A stretch of DNA of 52,613 nucleotides from Iphinoe sp. HA4291-MV1. Lineage in GTDB: Bacteria; Cyanobacteriota; Cyanobacteriia; Cyanobacteriales; Nostocaceae. Of the stretch, positions 145 to 9,776 are shown one piece after another. The notes beneath the pieces were generated by a model, which was not told the DNA's origin, ran no database searches, and saw only the letters and a list, made by a program, of their open reading frames with translations. Each line of letters begins with the position of its first letter. The stretch's first letter is position 1. The position numbers and the translations under genes were made by a program. Location: contig JAHHHH010000050.1 in the NCBI GenBank assembly GCA_019359415.1, positions 1 to 52,613 of the forward strand. Direction: 5' to 3'.

Positions 145-1017
145 TCATTCATGGCTTTCAATATTTGATGAACGAGAATTAGCAATCGGTAGGCGACGTG
201 TCATACCCATACCCATCGTTGTTTTGCGTCCAACTCCTGCATACAAAGCAAAGTCAGCAAGGGCGTTTATTTGCTTAATTGCGATTGGTTCAATATCTCC
301 TAGAATCCGATAGCTCATTTCGCCAACGCAACCAATAAATTTGTTGTCATAGTTGCTAATCACTTCGGTACGGATGTTGACAAAACTTGGATAAATTGAC
401 TCGATAGGAGTGTTGGTAAATTCAATACCACTATATTTGTTCCAGCGACTGACAAGACTATTAAAGACACATTCCCGAATTGGCAGAATGGTATCGTATC
501 CTCCTTGGCGAAAAGCTACGGGTGTGGCGAGAGTGAAGTTGAGAGTGCGATCGCTCTGGCTTGCTTGTTCGTACAATTGCGTATAAGTGCAAGCATTTGC
601 CCAAGGTTGTGTTGATTGGGGTGTACCAAAAATGCTAGTAATGTACAAGTCTGTAGAACCCAAATGCCAAGCGTGTTTGGGGTTGAGATTGAGCCAAAGT
701 GGAGTCAGCTTGTCAAAAAGTGTGTCGTCTAATAGCGAAATGCGCCACCAGCAAGGTGTACCTGCGGGGATTAGGCGTTGATGGGAAAATTGCAAGATAT
801 CATTGTGTTTTTTGTGCGGATTTTTATGATTTCGTTGTATTTGTAAGGGTGAAAGGGTGAAGGCTTTGTCTGCGTTGGATTGGTGTAGATAGTCTCCTAA
901 GGTGCGATCGGCTGAACTGACGAGGGTGAGGAATAGGGCGTGGTAGTGTCTTCCTGTGAGGAATTCGGGGTAGATGGGAGACTGGGGAATGAGGTTAAGG
1001 ACGAGACTGTGAGGCAT
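145..1017 (-). CDS. cas6: Type I-D CRISPR pre-crRNA endoribonuclease Cas6
   Basis: Cas6-family RAMP endoribonuclease that cuts CRISPR precursor RNA inside each repeat and delivers mature crRNA to the I-D Cascade. The N-terminus carries a TGRHYHALFL segment around residues 21-30 with candidate catalytic histidines. The C-terminus carries the family's glycine-rich loop (GVGRKTTMGMGM, about residues 261-272) that contacts RNA. Length (290 aa) is normal for the family. It is the last minus-strand cas gene in view and is separated from csc1 by an oppositely oriented gene. In related loci cas4-cas1-cas2 follow cas6; here only 144 bp remain before the window edge and I see no cas4 start in them. Family assignment is firm; the catalytic residue is inferred. 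Confidence 0.9.
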   Translation of the reverse strand: MPHSLVLNLIPQSPIYPEFLTGRHYHALFLTLVSSADRTLGDYLHQSNADKAFTLSPLQIQRNHKNPHKKHNDILQFSHQRLIPAGTPCWWRISLLDDTLFDKLTPLWLNLNPKHAWHLGSTDLYITSIFGTPQSTQPWANACTYTQLYEQASQSDRTLNFTLATPVAFRQGGYDTILPIRECVFNSLVSRWNKYSGIEFTNTPIESIYPSFVNIRTEVISNYDNKFIGCVGEMSYRILGDIEPIAIKQINALADFALYAGVGRKTTMGMGMTRRLPIANSRSSNIESHE

Positions 1018-1476: not shown

Positions 1477-2184
1477 TTAGCTCCGAAAACGATACGCCAT
1501 CCGCACTGGGATTTTTATCTGCTTGTTCTCATTCAATTGATAGTATGTTCCTCGCATTTGCACATTTTGAATGAGACTGACTGGAGGCATATTTACGACA
1601 TCATAGCTCAGCACCTGATTCGTAAACATGACATCCAATGGATTTAAGGGATGTGTACAGGTAAATAAGCCTTCAGTAGTTTTTGGTTGACGCAATTCTT
1701 CAACTATTAACTCAGCTTTACTCATCCACTTACCCAAGCGAATCCATTTTGGGAGCTTCAGTTGCTTTTGAGAAATCACAAAAAACTCAAATCGACTTTC
1801 TGGCGCAATCTCTTTTGTTCTACCAAAACTAGGAATATTCTTTTGAGTTTTTTCCATCTCAACATGGTAGTTGTTATTAGCATACTTCCAGGTATTGAGA
1901 ATGGCAGTATGGTTGACTGCACGAGCTGGTGTGACATAAATTACCTGATGATTGAGTGGTGTTAAATGTTCCTCATATTTGGGAACTTGTTCTGGACAAA
2001 AGTAGCGATAGGAGTGTTCTTCTGCAACGGTTGTAGAGTAGATTTCACTATCTACTAATCCCAATGCGTAGCAAAGTGCGTAATTATGAAGAACTGGTTC
2101 TGTTTCGTAGAGTCTTCCTATCTCACGAGTCGCATAATATAGGCTGTCATGGAGTTCTAGTTGACAGTGGTAAATTAAGGTCAT
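1477..2184 (-). CDS. csc1: Type I-D Cascade subunit Csc1 (Cas5 type)
   Basis: Cas5-like RAMP subunit of the type I-D effector complex, which caps the 5' handle of the crRNA. The 235-aa length fits Csc1, as does the N-terminus with a short beta-strand start followed by 'LHNYALCYALGL' near residues 31-42. It follows csc2 with only 5 bp between the csc2 stop and the csc1 ATG, so the two are probably translated from one mRNA. Its stop codon touches the stop of the convergent 137-aa gene, leaving no room for a terminator between them. Assignment rests on sequence pattern plus the diagnostic I-D neighbours (Csc2, Cas10d). Confidence 0.88.
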   Translation of the reverse strand: MTLIYHCQLELHDSLYYATREIGRLYETEPVLHNYALCYALGLVDSEIYSTTVAEEHSYRYFCPEQVPKYEEHLTPLNHQVIYVTPARAVNHTAILNTWKYANNNYHVEMEKTQKNIPSFGRTKEIAPESRFEFFVISQKQLKLPKWIRLGKWMSKAELIVEELRQPKTTEGLFTCTHPLNPLDVMFTNQVLSYDVVNMPPVSLIQNVQMRGTYYQLNENKQIKIPVRMAYRFRS

Positions 2185-2189
2185 AGCTT

Positions 2190-3197
2190 TTACTTAGCAG
2201 ATACTTTTTCTTTACCTTTTATGTGTTTTTGGGCATAACCCTTAGCTTCCCCATCTGCTTTTTTCAGCATATTTTTCAATTTTTCTTCATTGGTAGTAAT
2301 GGCTTTGACTTCATTGAACAAAGGTTTAAATTGTTCACCGATAAAGTCTTCATGCACAAGAAACTCATCCTGCATTAGACTAACAATTGTACTTGTTGCA
2401 GCTTCAATGACATCATCTTCATTTAATGGCTCTGAAGAATTTAAAGTTACATTCTTCTTCATATAGTCGTAAATTCCCTGCGTCCATCGTAAATTGCTGA
2501 TAATTTCTCCGTCAGCAAATACTACACCTATTAATTCATTCCGTACTCTTCCTGTACGTGTCGTTTGCGCTCCATAATGACGAGTACGCAAGATGTTATT
2601 AAAGACGTACAAAAAGCTCGCTTCTGTGGGGTCTTTTAATGTCACTATGCTAGGAAAGAATATTTGAGGTTTAATGTGGTCTTGTTGATTAATTCGGCTA
2701 GTGACTTCACCAGGTTTAGAACCATTTTCACCCTTGGATGCCATTGTACCATTTTCAAAGGGAGCGTTGAGGGTAAATGTCTCATGTGATTCAGCAAAGT
2801 CGGTGATGGAAAAAGCTGTATCTACCACAACTTTAGATTTTTCAGAACCAGAATCACCAATCGCAAAACCATAGATAATACAATCAGGATTATCCATTGC
2901 AAATTTGACGTTATACTCGCACTCTTCCGCAGTCATTAAACCGTAATTTCTGAGTAATTCTCGACCGACTAAACGCTCTGGTGTGGATTGTTTACGTTTG
3001 AACATAGTCAAGCGACTAATAGTTGTTTTGTCCTCAATTCCTGCTCGTACTCGTGATTTATTGAGTTCGCCATCAGTTTGAAATAGTGGATATGATTCAG
3101 TAACGCGTATGGTCAAAAAATGAACGTACTTTCCCATTGGTTTGTAGGGAATCTCAGCATGAAAATGTTTGCCATCAACAGTCTTTAGAATAGTCAT
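2190..3197 (-). CDS. csc2: Type I-D Cascade backbone subunit Csc2 (Cas7 type)
   Basis: Cas7-like protein that polymerises along the crRNA to form the backbone of the type I-D Cascade. Length (335 aa) is right for Csc2. The sequence shows RAMP-like features, including 'FNNILRTRHYGAQTTRTGRVRN' around residues 204-225, a conserved-looking basic/glycine loop, and a lysine-rich C-terminus. It lies between cas10d (105 bp upstream) and csc1 (5 bp downstream) on the same strand, in the order typical of I-D operons. Nothing suggests truncation. Confidence 0.92.
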   Translation of the reverse strand: MTILKTVDGKHFHAEIPYKPMGKYVHFLTIRVTESYPLFQTDGELNKSRVRAGIEDKTTISRLTMFKRKQSTPERLVGRELLRNYGLMTAEECEYNVKFAMDNPDCIIYGFAIGDSGSEKSKVVVDTAFSITDFAESHETFTLNAPFENGTMASKGENGSKPGEVTSRINQQDHIKPQIFFPSIVTLKDPTEASFLYVFNNILRTRHYGAQTTRTGRVRNELIGVVFADGEIISNLRWTQGIYDYMKKNVTLNSSEPLNEDDVIEAATSTIVSLMQDEFLVHEDFIGEQFKPLFNEVKAITTNEEKLKNMLKKADGEAKGYAQKHIKGKEKVSAK

Positions 3198-3302: not shown

Positions 3303-6300
3303 CTAATCCGCATCTAAATCATCAGTTTCATCTTCTACTTTGACAGGACGTTCTTCATAATTAGCGAGACGGTAAAGATACTCGCAAGTATTACGGATAT
3401 AGTTCATTTGGCGTCCTTGCAAACGAGCGCGATCGCTTGCAAAAGATTCATTAAAAACCTTAACCACAAAATACTCAGCAAAATCTCGAATAGCTTGTAA
3501 TTCCTCCTCTTTCTGACTAATTACCCAGCGTCCTTCCGCTCTAGAAGCATGAACTCGTTTCATGAGCTGGAAGACTTCTGCAGTTACCAAATCAATCAAT
3601 GCATCATCAGAAAAACTGGTATCAGCTTTGAGAATGATATCAGCAGCGACATCAATGGGTTTAAGAATCGCATTTGCTGGTATTGGCTGCTTACCAGTTT
3701 TTTTAGCGTGTCTGTAAAACTTTCGGAATCTCTCTGTTAATTCTTTGGGATGATTCAATTGTGATTTTTGTGTCACTTTCCATGTCTCCGATTGAAAATC
3801 ATATTCTGCATAGGGGTCAAAACAAGGGTAAAAGTAATAAGCATAGAGCTTTATTTTATTAATGCTAGGTGTTTCGACGTTTTGGCGTCGCGTCCAACTC
3901 TTAAGGTAGCTAAAGACATTGAGCGGACTTGTTTCTAAATCTCTTGCTAATTCAGAAAACTTACTCCAATTGGATTCATATTTTCCCTTACTTTGTTTAG
4001 CATTAACATCAAGATGAATAGCATAAGCCGCAGTTAATACATTTAGTGGCGCAGGATATTTTTTGTTGTTTTCCTCCCAGCCTTCAAGGATATAATCAAG
4101 ACGAAATCTATCTCGTCCCACCAATACCCGAAAAGCTTGTGGCGCACTATCCAAAAACACAGTTTCTTCAAATTCAGCACCATCATTAAACGGTGGAATG
4201 GGTGACTCAGAAACGACAGTCTTGACATCTAAAATCATTGGAAACGCAAATGCTAGCCAACTTGGCATAACCCAAGATTCAGTATCAGTCGGATCGAGTC
4301 CTGGTGGTAGCGCCATGAAGTAAAATGTCAAAGGTTGGTCTTCAGGATAAGAAAGCTTAAATGTTCGGTCTTGTTTACGTTCTCGATGATTTTCTGGTAA
4401 ATCTTTTTTACGCTGCAAGTCCTCATCTATCAGGAATGTATCAACACTTTGATAGCGTTGTCGCCCAAAATCCGCTTGCAAATCATCATTGATAAAATGA
4501 TTACGGATGCTAGCATTAAACCGAGTTTGAGCAATATTAGTATAAGCCCACTGAAGAAATTTATTTGTCTCCGGTGTGCAGTAATAAGTTGGATAAAAAT
4601 AGAGATAACGGTACTTACCATCTTCAAATCTTTTACCCACCGCCTGAGTTTGATTCATCAAGATTTGACGCAGCATCATTTCTATACCTGCAATGCTGGA
4701 AATGTTGCGTTTTGCATTGGAACCACCCAGCATTTGCTTATTTGTATAAACTTGGGGAGTAAACAGCACCGCAGATTCCATCTGTTCTGTGACGGTGTAA
4801 GCAGAATGAGAAACCGAGCAAATCAACTGTCGTCCACGCCCAGATTTCTTCGCCAGTTGATAGCGTTCTAACTCATCCAGAAAAACTTTTGTAGAATCAA
4901 TATCTTGCAGCTTCTCCTTTCCAGGTAGAATGATAACACGTTGCACCCACAAGCGTAAATCGTCCCATCCATCTGGTAACTTATATTGTTCTACAATTGG
5001 TGAAATGAGCTTCGCCAGATGATTGATAACACTCTCACAAACTTCCTCTACGTTCTCAATTTCTGGGTTACGTTCTAAGTACTTTGCTGCCAAGTAATAC
5101 CATTCATAAGGCACACCGCCAGTATTACCTTTAAGTTTTAGTTCCTTAAGCGTATCATTAATCCTTTGTATTTCTCGGATTGGAGGCAAAGACTTTTCTA
5201 AATTCCAGAATTGAGCCACCTCTCGTACTAAATCTAAATCAGGTAAAGTTGGTAACTCCTTCTTATTTTTCTTGCTCTCTTTTCGTACCTCTTCAATCTT
5301 ATGAACCTTCTCTCCCCAAATTTTACGACTAATGACATCACCAAACTCAGCAATTTGGTCGATACGTATATCATCAGAGAAACTGAAATTGTAATCAGCT
5401 GAGAGAACACCTTGCTGTTGAAACTTAACTAAATTATCACTACGACTTTTAGCAACTGAACTTTTTCCAGATTTGAGAATGCGTAAATTTGCTTTGAGCG
5501 CAACGCGCATCAATCCTGTGTCATCAAAGAATTTATCATAATACTCGGCATATTTCATGCCTTTACCATCTCTACCAAAACCAGTTTGACGCTTAATAAG
5601 TTGTCCACCACAAAATTCTTTAATCTTGTGAACTACCCTATCTGGTAAATCTTCAGTCGATATTGCTGGTGAATTGCAGAGTGTTAAGTAAACAATACCT
5701 GTTGGTAAATATAGCAATGGCTTATAGTATTCAAGCTCTTGTGTATTTAAACTTGTGTGAGCCTCCATCAAAGCGTTGTTCACCACATTGGTTAAAACAC
5801 CTCTGTTTTCAGCAACTCGGTGATAAGTCAATTTCAGTTGTCCATCACTAAGATTGTGGAGAATGCCACTTAAAGTACGGTGTTCAGCATCTTGAGGATG
5901 TTTAATAACCGAGGCGAGTAAATCAGCTATACAAGTTAAGTCAGCAAGACAGACAAGGACATACTCATTAAGTATTGGCTGTAACCCATGCTCAGAAAGA
6001 TTTAAATTTGTATCACTTCTGCGCTGGGCGTTATAAGCAATGAATAGCAAGTCATCTCTATATTCTTGCCATGTTTCTGGTTCGTCGGGGCTGATAAATT
6101 TATCAATATTCAGTTCCCGAACAATCACATCTATAATTTCACGGTGCGCTGCTAGAGGTAACTCACGAATTTTTTGTTCCTTGTCTAAAGCGATCGCTTT
6201 GTACACTTCCGGCATTTTTGGAAAAAGTCGATAATCAAACTTTTCAAAATCATGTAGGATAAATCCAGCAATCAGTAAGCGTCTTTCTTTTTCATGGATG

Positions 6301-6764
6301 ACTCTTTTGACAGTTGTGTTTAGTTTTTTAAGGCGACGTTCAATGAGATTAGCAGGAAGTAATCCGTTAAGTAGATGTGTATTTAAAGATTGATCGCCTG
6401 CGTTATCTCGCCTAACGTTTTCTTTCCCTTTCTTTTGATCGAGATAATCAAAAAACTTACCACCCTTCGCCGTCACTCCAATAGCTAGTCGTAGCAAGTT
6501 TGGTAACACATATTGGCTAAAGTCCTGCATGATGAAATCATCAGGGTTTTCTGTTGTGATCGCTCTTTGCAATAACTTGAGCGTGAGCAGTTCAGATGGT
6601 TTGGTTGCAACTGTGCGATTAGATGTTATTTCAAAGTCTGAGTCATCTCCAGACATCCAATCATTATCTGAGTTATCTAACTCTTCGGAGTTAATATCCT
6701 GATTTGCTTCCAACAGAGAGAGTTGTTGTGCTTGTTCTTCTAATTTTTTGCGTTTCTTCGCCAT
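3303..6764 (-). CDS. cas10d: Type I-D large subunit/HD nuclease Cas10d (Csc3)
   Basis: Large subunit of the type I-D effector, carrying the DNA-cutting HD domain that other type I systems keep in Cas3. HD-domain residues are visible: H130 (in 'SLNTHLLNGLLPA'), H171-D172 (in 'FILHDFEKFD') and H207. The remaining roughly 900 residues would contain the Cas10-like palm; I see no GGDD cyclase motif, as expected for Cas10d. The N-terminal 60 residues are acidic and low-complexity. Full length (1153 aa). The neighbouring cas3' gene is a helicase without an HD domain, which confirms the I-D split of activities. Upstream (6765-6955) is a 190-bp gap before the coiled-coil ORF, so it may have its own promoter. 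Confidence 0.93.
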   Translation of the reverse strand: MAKKRKKLEEQAQQLSLLEANQDINSEELDNSDNDWMSGDDSDFEITSNRTVATKPSELLTLKLLQRAITTENPDDFIMQDFSQYVLPNLLRLAIGVTAKGGKFFDYLDQKKGKENVRRDNAGDQSLNTHLLNGLLPANLIERRLKKLNTTVKRVIHEKERRLLIAGFILHDFEKFDYRLFPKMPEVYKAIALDKEQKIRELPLAAHREIIDVIVRELNIDKFISPDEPETWQEYRDDLLFIAYNAQRRSDTNLNLSEHGLQPILNEYVLVCLADLTCIADLLASVIKHPQDAEHRTLSGILHNLSDGQLKLTYHRVAENRGVLTNVVNNALMEAHTSLNTQELEYYKPLLYLPTGIVYLTLCNSPAISTEDLPDRVVHKIKEFCGGQLIKRQTGFGRDGKGMKYAEYYDKFFDDTGLMRVALKANLRILKSGKSSVAKSRSDNLVKFQQQGVLSADYNFSFSDDIRIDQIAEFGDVISRKIWGEKVHKIEEVRKESKKNKKELPTLPDLDLVREVAQFWNLEKSLPPIREIQRINDTLKELKLKGNTGGVPYEWYYLAAKYLERNPEIENVEEVCESVINHLAKLISPIVEQYKLPDGWDDLRLWVQRVIILPGKEKLQDIDSTKVFLDELERYQLAKKSGRGRQLICSVSHSAYTVTEQMESAVLFTPQVYTNKQMLGGSNAKRNISSIAGIEMMLRQILMNQTQAVGKRFEDGKYRYLYFYPTYYCTPETNKFLQWAYTNIAQTRFNASIRNHFINDDLQADFGRQRYQSVDTFLIDEDLQRKKDLPENHRERKQDRTFKLSYPEDQPLTFYFMALPPGLDPTDTESWVMPSWLAFAFPMILDVKTVVSESPIPPFNDGAEFEETVFLDSAPQAFRVLVGRDRFRLDYILEGWEENNKKYPAPLNVLTAAYAIHLDVNAKQSKGKYESNWSKFSELARDLETSPLNVFSYLKSWTRRQNVETPSINKIKLYAYYFYPCFDPYAEYDFQSETWKVTQKSQLNHPKELTERFRKFYRHAKKTGKQPIPANAILKPIDVAADIILKADTSFSDDALIDLVTAEVFQLMKRVHASRAEGRWVISQKEEELQAIRDFAEYFVVKVFNESFASDRARLQGRQMNYIRNTCEYLYRLANYEERPVKVEDETDDLDAD

Positions 6765-6955
6765 TGGTTTATCTCCATTAAATTTGCATGCCGACTTAAG
6801 CCCTGATTAGGACTGTAAGAAAATTAACAATTCAGACGTTGCATAAATGCGGGATGAATTGGCTGTTGAAACCGTTGAAAATTTGTTCTGAATTAGGCGA
6901 AATCATCCCATGATTACGCAACGCCACAATTCAATTTATTTGTGAACTGTAGATA

Positions 6956-7288
6956 TTATTCAATCTGCCTATAAAAAGCTGCTATCTCTTCTAGTTCCTG
7001 ATTTCGAGGAATTAGATATTCAAATTGATGGACTTTTACTACAGCAAAAGTGCTTGACTCCTGGCACTCCTCTATTTGAGCTTGCTGATCCTGAACTTTA
7101 AACTGTAGTCCTTGTAACATAATCATATTTTCTTCATATTTCTGTTTTAATTCAGCTAACTGACTGTCATGTTCTGAAAGTCGATGATCTTGAATGAGAT
7201 TGTGCTGTTGCTGCAACTTCATGCGATCAATCAGATCATTGATGGAATAGCGGAGTAACTCTAGTGAGTCAGGATTTTGGCTGTGCAT
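6956..7288 (-). CDS. Small coiled-coil hypothetical protein inside the cas operon
   Basis: A 110-aa acidic, glutamine-rich protein with a predicted long coiled coil from about residue 15 to 75 (heptad-like spacing of L/I/M, e.g. 'INDLIDRMKLQQQHNLIQ'). The C-terminus is different: 'FEYLIPRNQELEEIAAFYRQIE'. I do not recognise the family. It is co-directional with cas10d, 190 bp upstream of it, and downstream of the crRNA-like element at 7459-7588. It may be a passenger, a structural accessory or a regulator of the cas genes; nothing in the sequence decides between these. Confidence 0.6.
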   Translation of the reverse strand: MHSQNPDSLELLRYSINDLIDRMKLQQQHNLIQDHRLSEHDSQLAELKQKYEENMIMLQGLQFKVQDQQAQIEECQESSTFAVVKVHQFEYLIPRNQELEEIAAFYRQIE

Positions 7289-7379
7289 CTGGCCTTTTCG
7301 TTGTTTGAAGAGTTACCCTAGAGTCTAGCATGATACATTTTGTATAACCATCGTTTTTCTGAAACAAACGCATTTATTA

Positions 7380-7424
7380 TCAATCTGTCAATTTATGATT
7401 CTGTAACAAGAGCAAGTAGAACAT
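7380..7424 (-). CDS. Possible 14-codon hydrophobic mini-ORF near the crRNA-like element
   Basis: Reading on the minus strand, an ATG at 7424-7422 opens MFYLLLLQNHKLTD and ends at a TGA (7382-7380). An AGGGAG Shine-Dalgarno-like motif (7439-7434) lies 9 nt before the ATG, a good spacing. The site matched by the neighbouring crRNA-like spacer (7383-7404, PAM 7405-7407) lies wholly inside it. CreT toxins of CreTA modules can be very small hydrophobic peptides or RNAs placed next to crRNA-like CreA, which is why I list it. A 14-codon ORF with an SD can arise by chance, so this is a hypothesis. Confidence 0.2.
   Translation of the reverse strand: MFYLLLLQNHKLTD
7383..7407 (-). promoter_or_regulatory. 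Candidate target site (protospacer plus GTT PAM) of the crRNA-like RNA
   Basis: On the minus strand this reads GTT followed by ACAGAATCATAA and then ATTGACAGAT. The spacer after the isolated repeat (from 7496, plus strand) reads ACAGACTCATAA and then TTGACTGAT. Positions 1-12 agree except at position 6, the position known to be tolerant in type I Cascades. The match continues after a 1-nt gap (19 of 22 columns overall). GTN is the known type I-D PAM. The site also holds a TTGACA hexamer on the minus strand (7391-7386) and a TATGAT on the plus strand (7394-7399), so Cascade binding here could block transcription either way. Confidence 0.45.
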
Positions 7425-7458
7425 TCGCTTGAACTCCCTTTTGTGATACGCTAATTAC

Positions 7459-7588
7459 AAGGGTAGTTAGTCAAATCCCTATCAGGGATTGAAACACAGA
7501 CTCATAATTGACTGATATTTACTTATCTACCCCTGGCTTGAAACAAGTCAAGCTAGCTTAACTACAAATCCCTATTAGGGATAGCCTT
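7459..7588 (+). CRISPR. Isolated CRISPR repeat plus degenerate repeat: crRNA-like (CreA/CreR-like) element
   Basis: A canonical cyanobacterial repeat end is present: AATCCCT (7474-7480), ATC loop, AGGGATT (7484-7490), then GAAAC (7491-7495). Counting a 37-nt unit gives 7459-7495. A second copy (AATCCCT 7567-7573, ATT, AGGGAT 7577-7582) has lost the GAAAC end and runs into the cas3' stop codon at 7587-7589. The interval between repeats would be about 56 nt, longer than a normal spacer. There is no array. The first ~21 nt of the interval resemble a PAM-flanked site at 7383-7404. Repeat, divergent spacer and degenerate second repeat between cas genes is the architecture of CreA/CreR regulators. 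The alternative is a decayed array remnant. Confidence 0.55.
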
Positions 7589-9776
7589 AAGCAATCCATA
7601 TCTCATTCCCTTTAAGAGGATAAGTTTGGGTGTCTAGCAACAGGGCAGACTGCCCAAGAGCTATACAATACGGTGGTGTTGTATCGAGAACGCTGTACTG
7701 ATCACTAATTGGGTAAATCTCAAAGTGCATCGGCAGTTGTAACCGCCGCCGTACCTCATCGACACGTAATGGCACTACATAAGAAACTAACGCCTGCTTT
7801 TTCAGTTGCTTATTAATTTCACTAATCCAGTAGTTTCCTGGCTGCCAAACTTGGATGCCTAACAAAACCTGAACTTTCCAAGCATTAGCGATCGCTTCCA
7901 AATCCCCAGGATAAGTAAACTTCCAATCTAGTCTTTCCTCTCGATATCCAAGCAACTTCATAAATCCCAGACAGTATTCAAACCTGCCTTTGGGGATGGG
8001 GGTGTTGGTACGTTGAGCGATCGCACAACGCAGTCGTTCAAACTCTGTCCCCTTCATTGGTTCAATTTCCAAATTGCTGAGAATCCCTGGTAAATCGTAA
8101 GTTTTAAATCCATCTGCTTCATTCTGTTCAGTCTTGTCATATATTCCACACAGCAAAGGACTCGTACCCCGAAAACTCGCCGCCTCCTCTAAAATTGGGT
8201 TTCCTTTGTCTTTTCCTGATAGTTCTTGCCACTCCTTTTCCCATTCTTTGCTGCGAGCAAACACAGATTTGAGGTTTACCTTTTTCTTGTCAGTCTTGAA
8301 AACCAGTTCACAATCATTTTTAAGTGCTTCCTGGCTACCTTCGTACTGCTGCTTAACATAAGGATGTCCTAACTGTCGAACGAGTCGCATCGACTGTACA
8401 GTACCCCATTTGAAGTAGTAGTCTTCAAAATTATTGATTTTGCGGTACTTCTCCCGAATCTGGAGGTGGAAAAATGGACGTTCGTAAACCTCTTCTGACT
8501 TCAAAGGTGGGGAATCACCCGTAAACAGTTTGTCAATTAAGAAGTTGGGTACAAGTGCGTAAGCAGTAAAATCGGTAAAAGTTATATGCTGTCCGTCACG
8601 TTCATACCCATCATGTCGTCCCAATCTGCCCAAACGTTGAATAAAGTTACCAGCATCTGCTGACTCAAAAAATAGGAAGTTGATTTTGAAATCTACACCG
8701 ACATCAATAGTGCTAGTTCCCAAAACTAAGTCAGCTTGCAGCGATTCCTCTTTTGTTTTCTTCCCTGATAAACCAGTATTCTCATCAGCTTTGAACCCGT
8801 ATGGCTTAAGAAAATTATCAAAAAAGTCTTTTAACCGCTTCACTGCAGCAATTGAGTTCAGAATAATTGCACCTTTACCACCACGTTGCAAGTGAGTCAA
8901 AATCAATTCACTATTATCTTTCAGCCAAGTTTCAGACGCTTTTGAGGTAGGTTCTAGCCGGACAAAATGTAAGGATATTTCTCGTGAGACTTGCCGCCAA
9001 CCTTGAGCTTTTAGCTGCTGACACTCAATAGCAGTATCAGGAAATTTATACTTGTTCTCTTTAAGTGGATCAATTTCATGACAGCGAAACCCTGCTGATT
9101 GAAGTCTCTTAACTAGTTCCGGATTTGGTGTTGCAGAGAGAAACAGAAACTTCTTGCGCCGATTAGTGCGGCGAATTAACAACATAGTATTGATGACGCT
9201 AGCAATCTGCGGTGCTTGGAAAACATGAAACTCGTCGAACACAATCACATTGAAACGCTTATCAATCCTCCCCCACAGCTTGTCCGGACTATCATTAAAA
9301 AGTAGATACGCGCCCCGATGCAGGTAATGAAAAATATCTGGATTTGCCAGTAAAATTTCGGTTTGCCCCACGCGTGTTTCTAAAGCTGCGCCTTTTTTTA
9401 AGTTTTCTTGTTCCGCATAAACTTCCAACTCTTGTCCACTCAATCGATGAACACGCGGTTCATGTTCTGGTTGAAATAGCTCAATGTATCGCCGAACTTG
9501 CATTTCTTGGTCTCTTGCAAGTTCGTTAGTCGGATATAATCCTAGAATTGGTGAATATACGTGTAAAATATCCAGATAACCAGCAAGAGTTTTGCCATCG
9601 CCAGTCATAGCAATATTGGAAATAACATCTATATCTGGATCGCGTATCGCCTTTAGAGTTTCTGCTTGATGCCAGGAAAGCATCCAGCCCTCAGGTAGTT
9701 TCACCCCCTTTGGAACATCTGATGCAGATGCAGGGCATGAATAAACGGGTTTAAGAATAATGTTGTATTCGGACAT
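7587..9776 (-). CDS. cas3: Type I-D CRISPR helicase Cas3' (no HD domain)
   Basis: Superfamily 2 helicase recruited by the effector to unwind target DNA. Motif I is AMTGDGKT (residues 56-63), motif II DEFH (in 'VIVFDEFHVFQAP'), motif III SATPNPE, motif V 'STIDVGVDF' and motif VI 'QRLGRLGRHD'. No N-terminal HD nuclease is present; the protein opens directly into the helicase core, which is the I-D arrangement. 729 aa. The stop codon abuts the degenerate CRISPR repeat. It is divergent from the WYL regulator with 99 bp between the start codons, a region that contains AGTGTCCGT repeats. Confidence 0.92.
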   Translation of the reverse strand: MSEYNIILKPVYSCPASASDVPKGVKLPEGWMLSWHQAETLKAIRDPDIDVISNIAMTGDGKTLAGYLDILHVYSPILGLYPTNELARDQEMQVRRYIELFQPEHEPRVHRLSGQELEVYAEQENLKKGAALETRVGQTEILLANPDIFHYLHRGAYLLFNDSPDKLWGRIDKRFNVIVFDEFHVFQAPQIASVINTMLLIRRTNRRKKFLFLSATPNPELVKRLQSAGFRCHEIDPLKENKYKFPDTAIECQQLKAQGWRQVSREISLHFVRLEPTSKASETWLKDNSELILTHLQRGGKGAIILNSIAAVKRLKDFFDNFLKPYGFKADENTGLSGKKTKEESLQADLVLGTSTIDVGVDFKINFLFFESADAGNFIQRLGRLGRHDGYERDGQHITFTDFTAYALVPNFLIDKLFTGDSPPLKSEEVYERPFFHLQIREKYRKINNFEDYYFKWGTVQSMRLVRQLGHPYVKQQYEGSQEALKNDCELVFKTDKKKVNLKSVFARSKEWEKEWQELSGKDKGNPILEEAASFRGTSPLLCGIYDKTEQNEADGFKTYDLPGILSNLEIEPMKGTEFERLRCAIAQRTNTPIPKGRFEYCLGFMKLLGYREERLDWKFTYPGDLEAIANAWKVQVLLGIQVWQPGNYWISEINKQLKKQALVSYVVPLRVDEVRRRLQLPMHFEIYPISDQYSVLDTTPPYCIALGQSALLLDTQTYPLKGNEIWIA

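Follow-up and report, generated by a model that had tools for sequence, protein, structure and literature searches.

A candidate CreA/CreR-type regulatory crRNA in a cyanobacterial type I-D CRISPR-Cas locus

Introduction

What is the function of a short CRISPR-like unit that lies between the cas genes themselves? The question is raised by Iphinoe sp. HA4291-MV1, a member of the Nostocaceae, in which one intact repeat handle, a single over-long spacer and a second, degraded repeat are found beside cas3' of a type I-D system. The stretch analysed here comprises positions 1 to 52,613 of contig JAHHHH010000050.1 (GenBank assembly GCA_019359415.1) and is referred to as the window. A sequence-only reading of it had proposed a CreA/CreR-like regulatory crRNA aimed at a nearby site. 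Judged from the PAM, the seed and the covariation found in relatives, the assignment to this class in a cyanobacterial type I-D system is strongly supported. Since the guide and its site covary among related species, the element very probably serves regulation and not the cutting of viruses: it would let the CRISPR machinery switch a neighbouring gene off, and perhaps its own operon too.

Results

Organisation of the locus

The window carries a type I-D operon on its minus strand, in the order cas3', a 110-aa ORF, cas10d, csc2, csc1 and cas6 (Table 1). The mini-array is on the plus strand, in the gap that separates cas3' from the 110-aa ORF, and is antisense to both. The gene directly behind the target is this small ORF, here called the cargo; cas10d comes next, and the cargo is collinear with cas10d-csc2-csc1-cas6. 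No intrinsic terminator is called between cargo and cas10d (window 6740-7000), so that cargo and effector operon may be repressed jointly from one promoter. The gap between these two genes (6765-6955, minus strand) has a strong RNA fold (z -4.1) with a long imperfect inverted repeat, which could hinder read-through.

Table 1. Features of the type I-D locus and its mini-array in the window
Feature	Position	Strand	Basis or remark
cas6	145..1017	-	profile match
csc1 (cas5d)	1477..2184	-	profile match
csc2 (cas7d)	2190..3197	-	profile match
cas10d (csc3), large subunit	3303..6764	-	TIGR03174, E 3.4e-287
cargo gene, family A, 110-aa coiled-coil-like protein	6956..7288	-	cargo family comparison, profile searches, dN/dS of relatives
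likely -10 region of cargo promoter, TATCATGCTAGACT	7322..7335	-	aligned with TATGCTAGGCTCT of relatives
target (protospacer), seed 7404-7393	7370..7404	-	seed 11/12, 19/22 with one bulge; 35-nt length assumed
PAM, GTT	7405..7407	-	type I-D PAM GTN
predicted extended -10 (TGnTAnnnT) of mini-array transcript, TGATACGCT	7444..7452	+	comparison across loci
5' strand of leader/guide-3' stem, GGGTAG	7461..7466	+	weak alone; supported across loci
first pseudo-repeat, hairpin core and intact 8-nt handle ATTGAAAC	7474..7495	+	comparison with array repeat of contig C33
guide	7496..7530	+	in relatives the first 16-20 nt pair with target
3' strand of stem, CTACCC	7527..7532	+	comparison across loci
second pseudo-repeat, overlapping the cas3' stop codon	7567..7588	+	core 13/14, handle 3/8 against C33 repeat
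cas3'	7587..9776	-	TIGR03158, E 2.5e-108

The two repeats were compared with the array repeat of contig C33, whose 3' 22 nt occur as serial copies on contigs C33, C35, C39 and C111 of this genome. The first agrees with it at 12/14 positions of the core, 8/8 of the 8-nt handle and only 4/15 of the 5' half. The earlier description of 7459-7495 as a canonical repeat therefore stands for core and handle and fails for the rest, and a canonical 37-nt repeat is rejected; the stretch once read as its 5' half looks, from the comparison below, like a transcript start together with one strand of a stem. The first pseudo-repeat scores 34.4 bits on Rfam CRISPR-DR5, under the gathering score of 40. The degenerate second repeat at the cas3' stop and the over-long spacer, both described before, are borne out by the alignment; the spacer length may be explained by the stem closing over the 3' part of the guide.

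In the window, the handle is thus kept in the first of two degenerate repeats (8/8) and lost in the second (3/8), as in CreTA, whereas several relatives retain it in the second. As far as the letters go, there is also a crRNA-like unit with a functional-looking first repeat near cas genes, as in CreR. An ordinary CRISPR array is not what is seen, there being one intact handle, an over-long spacer and a guide that matches its own locus. A minus-strand Rfam match to SAM-III (20.4 bits, gathering score 45) is taken as chance.

Guide-target match in the window

The guide starts with ACAGACTCATAA at 7496. Its first 12 nt match the minus-strand site 7404-7393, ACAGAATCATAA, at 11/12 positions, with the single mismatch at position 6; past a 1-nt gap the match extends to 19/22 columns, with a one-base bulge after position 10. 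Directly 5' of the site is GTT (7407-7405). The section of the type I-D review drawn on here gives GTN as the type I-D PAM and states that type I seeds skip position 6 (PMC10212523). TATGAT on the plus strand overlaps the seed, and TTGACA on the minus strand overlaps the extended match. The seed match with its mismatch, the gapped extension, the PAM and the two promoter-like hexamers had been pointed out in the sequence-only reading, and recomputation reproduces them.

A GTN followed by at least 11/12 matches arose in 2/20000 dinucleotide shuffles of 7289-7458, and the motif GTNACAGANTCATAA, with position 6 left free, is found once in the 7.36-Mb assembly, at the target site. Solitary repeats also occur elsewhere in this genome (G000; C108:11100, C111:30217, C122:85291 and C133:14324); no GTN-flanked site of at least 13/20 was found in the 2.4-2.5 kb around each of these four.

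Survey of related loci

With the cas3' of the window as query, matches were obtained in 143/198 genomes, its own included. From the matches listed, 90 loci were used (30 returned as loci, 60 fetched) and turned downstream; those below 40% identity were not used, nor were G081, G090, G098 and the short pieces G043, G056, G064, G156 and the second piece of G073. Repeats were searched without regard to targets. An antisense mini-array just after cas3', its guide repeat at most 180 nt from the cas3' stop, is present in 63/90 loci. One further locus (G146) escaped the repeat pattern and was entered as lacking a mini-array here and in the 5/27 given below; it does have one with a different repeat, seen by eye and then by script. 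Another (G074), in which the guide began inside a duplicated repeat, was dropped from the statistics, leaving n=62.

Each guide was scored by its best GTN-flanked match on either strand of a region of 246-371 nt per locus. Cognate pairs reach at least 14/20 in 50/62 loci, compared to 7/2968 non-cognate pairs drawn from different guide clusters, and at least 15/20 in 33/62 loci compared to 0/2968. A GTN site of at least 13/20 is absent, in ungapped comparison, from 10/62 loci, the window included. When the PAM filter is removed, the best matches of at least 14/20 are flanked by GTT in 26/52 cases and GTC in 17/52, together 43/52. The loci share ancestry; they form 10 guide clusters, 8 of which contain a pair of at least 13/20. 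One locus (G052) has lost target and promoter, and keeps guide and cargo.

In a second clade, comprising 11 loci with a usable guide, the best GTN match of at least 13/20 is on the guide's own strand in 8 loci and on the other strand in 1, and 2 have none; no second repeat was found in this clade. The 8 targets are direct repeats of the guide, and seed and PAM are still kept. As a direct repeat cannot form a hairpin, a simple hairpin fails as a general explanation for the match. Several loci of cargo families B and C (described below) have additional copies resembling the guide, not flanked by GTN, at about 230-660 nt after cas3'; these may represent a second unit or act as a decoy in the leader of the cargo.

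A further set of 18 records, several of them repeating genomes of the main survey, gives a GTN site of at least 13/20 in five: Coleofasciculus sp. LEGE 07092, Argonema antarcticum, UBA11370, Picosynechococcus sp. PCC 7117 (GTC, 16/20; its repeat differs) and Anabaena sp. 90 (GTC, 15/20). In PCC 7117 the mini-array is carried by a plasmid together with a winged-helix cargo, for which the PLSDB gene table has no entry. The remaining 13/18 are without such a site, some having no mini-array. After cas3' of Synechocystis 6803 and Pseudanabaena galeata no repeat was found, and their cas3'-cas10d gaps are short (13 nt in Synechocystis 6803); Stanieria PCC 7437 has a repeat-like match for which no target was found. 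In general, no mini-array was found where cas10d closely follows cas3' (Synechocystis 6803, G022, G023, G174, G187). The gap often holds more genes in relatives, some of which, in named records, are toxin-antitoxin-like, namely DUF433 (Stanieria PCC 7437) and HepT-like and PDDEXK genes (Anabaena sp. 90).

Periodic mismatches and covariation

Type I Cascade flips out every sixth base of the pairing (6, 12, 18). In 50 distinct guide-target pairs, positions 6, 12 and 18 are mismatched at rates of 0.66, 0.64 and 0.86, compared to 0-0.14 at positions 1-5, 7-9 and 13-15 and 0.26-0.32 at positions 10-11, and the rates climb from position 16 on. Positions 6 and 12 differ from the other 15 of the first 17 with a Fisher p of 9e-30, where the pairs are treated as independent, which they are not. 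The signs of targeting by a type I Cascade, namely mismatch tolerance with a 6-nt period and a GTN PAM, are therefore found across relatives in these 50 pairs.

Compensation was analysed in 414 ordered comparisons of related guides, the two guides differing at 1-6 of 15 constrained positions, among loci whose own guide scores at least 11/15. In 397 of these the region pairs better with its own guide than with the related one, in 17 equally well and in 0 worse, and the loss of fit with the related guide broadly increases with the number of differences. Within the window's family, there is a change of C to G in both guide and target at guide position 15.

The conservation of seed and PAM with drift elsewhere, named in the sequence-only reading as a check to be made, is thus found across relatives, with the window pair among the weaker ones. 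Its seed and PAM are intact and its ungapped score is below 13/20. The window target carries a one-base insertion, and Anabaena catenula FACHB-362 shows the reverse, with one base fewer (by eye). The window guide scores 13/15 on the regions of four relatives, above the ungapped 11/15 on its own. The pair may be weaker or drifting and, taken alone, this copy could be in decay.

Promoters and leader stem

A sigma-70 consensus promoter scan of 7240-7640 found nothing, so that both promoter assignments in Table 1 rest on comparison. The sequence TGnTAnnnT ends 2-14 nt before the stem in 20/44 loci whose stem scores 16 or more, in 17/20 at 5-8 nt, compared to a mean of 1.4 and a maximum of 6 in 300 shuffles. 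Given this extended -10 just before it, transcription probably starts at the stem strand itself.

The stem itself is formed by the leader before the first repeat, which can pair with guide positions of about 22-47, mostly 25-40. Its mean score is 18.7 for cognate combinations, 13.7 for the 2968 non-cognate and 15.3 for 814 non-cognate combinations within clusters, and scores of at least 22 occur in 14/62 loci where 0.9 are expected. The two-member cluster ATGAC shows no cognate advantage, its within-cluster non-cognate mean of 22.5 exceeding the cognate 21.5. It should be added that the stem was seen by eye first, and that the narrower positional test was designed after a wide one, in which only 18/63 loci reached a shuffle p <= 0.02. 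The window RNA 7459-7590 folds at z -3.9; the stem is present in the minimum free energy fold, where part of the guide is also paired with the leader, and is absent from the centroid fold, which has other partners.

By eye, some 14-16 nt separate the end of the protospacer from the likely -35 downstream of it in the window's family, which makes a direct block of RNA polymerase less clear there, whereas in other families the protospacer overlaps the -35 (also by eye). For the window's family, a possible alternative is that bound Cascade hinders an upstream activator or the divergent promoter from which the guide itself would be transcribed.

Cargo genes

Six cargo families are found behind the target: A (coiled-coil-like, as in the window), B (winged-helix-like, labelled 'HTH' by PADLOC with E 9.8e-27), C, D, E (HTH-like) and F. 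Family C has two QLxLF-like motifs, with QLxLF or QLELxLF in 8/8 aligned members; family F is RAMA-like at 29 bits, under the Pfam cut-off of 35.2, and has QL[HD]IF in 4/4 aligned members. These motifs resemble sliding-clamp-binding peptides.

A gene of one of these families is present in the fetched downstream stretch of 60/63 loci with a mini-array and 5/27 without (Fisher 2.8e-13), a comparison somewhat favoured by the use of mini-array loci for building the cargo profiles; of the five, G146 does have a mini-array. Guide family tracks cargo family. Three sisters from the window's genus (G001, G006, G007) lack both cargo and mini-array, and one of them (G006) retains a single repeat.

The dN/dS of the window's cargo family is 0.25-0.45 over 10 pairs of five relatives, with the window itself outside the calculation; these values point to a protein-coding family A cargo under purifying selection. 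Against Pfam, NCBIfam, PHROGs and PADLOC, the window cargo gave weak matches only. Neither a toxin family, for the cargo representatives tested, nor KilA-N, for the window cargo and seven other representatives, is among the matches listed (in one Pfam list, the best 25 of 29). A plasmid search gave no match with a family C cargo and one match (E 3e-6) with a family B cargo.

The start of cas10d was located in 31/63 mini-array loci, at 635-1732 nt downstream of cas3'; in many of them the cargo is followed by additional ORFs. One rearranged locus (G036; C77, L177) has the order mini-array, family A cargo, 895-aa ORF, csc2, csc1, cas3', cas4, cas1 (two ORFs), cas2. Its guide and target agree at 15/20 with GTT (counted by eye), and the 895-aa ORF has no NCBIfam or Pfam match at the limits used. 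To judge from gene order, this arrangement favours a link to the effector operon.

Discussion

Proposed mechanism

On the basis of these observations we propose, with a probability of roughly 0.87, that the element is a one-guide mini-CRISPR that holds type I-D Cascade at an uncut site upstream of the cargo and so represses the cargo, with or without the effector operon. From the mini-array, the guide-target covariation, the PAM, the periodic mismatches, the cargo link and the leader stem, we infer the transcription, processing, Cascade binding, sign of regulation and cargo function as follows. The mini-array would be transcribed on the plus strand, convergent with cas3'; Cas6 would cut at the intact first pseudo-repeat; and the crRNA-like product would be loaded into type I-D Cascade, which would be held at the GTN-flanked site upstream of the small gene after cas3'. 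A duplex unpaired at positions 6, 12 and 18 and weakening past about 16-20 would allow binding and not license full interference, and this incompleteness would keep the site from being cut. Bound Cascade would repress the cargo promoter, possibly cas10d-csc2-csc1-cas6 too, and the cargo would be released once Cascade is lost, blocked or saturated.

Which gene is regulated

Two readings differ in what the repression is for. One, to which we give an even chance, is that Cascade silences a harmful or stress-response cargo, so that the loss of Cascade is punished or sensed, as in CreTA and CrePA. It would account for the near-constant company of cargo and mini-array, for the tracking of cargo family by guide family, and for the sisters that lack both, one with a leftover repeat; the clamp-binding-like motifs of families C and F point the same way. 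Against it, no toxin family or KilA-N appears among the matches listed for the representatives, the cargo profiles favour the association by their derivation, and transcription may continue into cas10d. The other reading, which we rate somewhat short of an even chance, is that the real target is the promoter of the effector operon before cas10d, as in CreR, and that the cargo is a passenger. The collinear order with no terminator called in 6740-7000 agrees with it, as does the rearranged locus, where the module still precedes the 895-aa gene and csc2-csc1-cas3', and mini-arrays aimed at large-subunit promoters are reportedly known. It sits poorly with the failure to find a mini-array where cas10d closely follows cas3', and with the distance to cas10d and the extra ORFs behind the cargo in the 31/63 loci. 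Because cargo and mini-array come and go together, we lean slightly to the cargo as the regulated gene.

That the element is a decayed CRISPR array, or a chance inverted repeat or hairpin, is very improbable. One degenerate repeat and a long spacer would suit it, and cas3' could make use of the second repeat, whose hairpin is terminator-like, but covariation, PAM and 6-nt periodicity speak against it, as do the direct-repeat orientation in 8/11 second-clade loci and the lack of such targets at the four other solitary repeats of the genome. Even less credible is an RNA anti-CRISPR of the Racr kind left by a mobile element: a single functional repeat is what such an element would have, but Racrs are not known to rely on a guide-target pair, and here a guide with a conserved target lies inside the cas operon in most of the 63 loci.

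A wider and quite tentative proposal builds on repression by Cascade. In it, the module is an exchangeable Cascade-gated cassette, in which a stem-folded mini-array RNA silences one of several unrelated small effector genes. Such a cassette would stand guard or raise an alarm upon the loss, blocking or saturation of Cascade. The effectors would be, equally tentatively, coiled-coil, winged-helix or RAMA-like proteins, or proteins with a clamp-binding-like motif, and the last might stop replication. The stem may replace the second repeat in the second clade.

Significance

The comparison places RNA-guided regulation by type I-D Cascade on a firm comparative footing. The 50 distinct natural pairs show which bases Cascade needs, namely PAM and seed with 6, 12 and 18 skipped, and the loci point to small genes of no known function that CRISPR seems to silence. 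Guard, sensor and autoregulation models become testable, and the stem would, if true, represent a novel means of defining or gating a guide. In Synechocystis 6803, the model for type I-D, the 13-nt gap between cas3' and cas10d leaves no room for the element, which may explain why it went unnoticed there.

Comparison with known systems

CreTA works through a toxic RNA, which ties up a rare tRNA and is kept repressed by the guide; in CrePA, the cargo is toxic and is released by anti-CRISPRs. Shmakov et al. (NAR, 2023) are said to have surveyed repeat units, mostly of type I, that stand alone and target the promoters of cas or cargo genes, and reportedly included mini-arrays targeting large-subunit promoters; the element resembles them in both the standalone repeat unit and the kind of promoter.

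CreTA, CreR and CrePA are distinguished as separate classes in the part of PMC12737573 used here, which gives a KilA-N type toxin protein as the typical CrePA cargo. Excerpts of other papers report CreR for types I-B, I-E and V-A (PMC13131331), a CreTA first repeat that retains its handle and a second that loses it (PMC9458426), Racrs as solitary repeats of viral genomes (PMC10651486) and mini-arrays of mobile elements (PMC11656645). In the portions of two reviews, we found no mention of autoregulation or mini-arrays for type I-D (PMC10212523), and none of mini-array, toxin, crRNA-like or ectopic for cyanobacterial type I (PMC11903412). In the titles and opening lines of abstracts surveyed, no such type I-D element is described; the 2023 survey is outside that scope, and we make no claim to a first report.

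The element shares with CrePA a crRNA-like RNA beside a small protein gene, but its cargo belongs to other families, with no KilA-N among the matches listed. With CreTA (type I-B, Haloarcula) it shares two degenerate repeats, the handle kept in the first and lost in the second, and a guide aimed at a neighbouring promoter within the CRISPR-Cas locus; it differs in that the cargo of the window's family resembles a protein gene under purifying selection. As in CreR, a crRNA-like unit in a cas locus has partial complementarity to a promoter, here flanked by a PAM and near the large-subunit gene. PAM and seed are present at the site; the promoter there would first serve the cargo, and cas10d lies behind it with no terminator called between. 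The element thus departs from CreR in its type I-D setting, in the cargo gene that separates target from cas10d, and in the stem predicted at the 5' end of its RNA.
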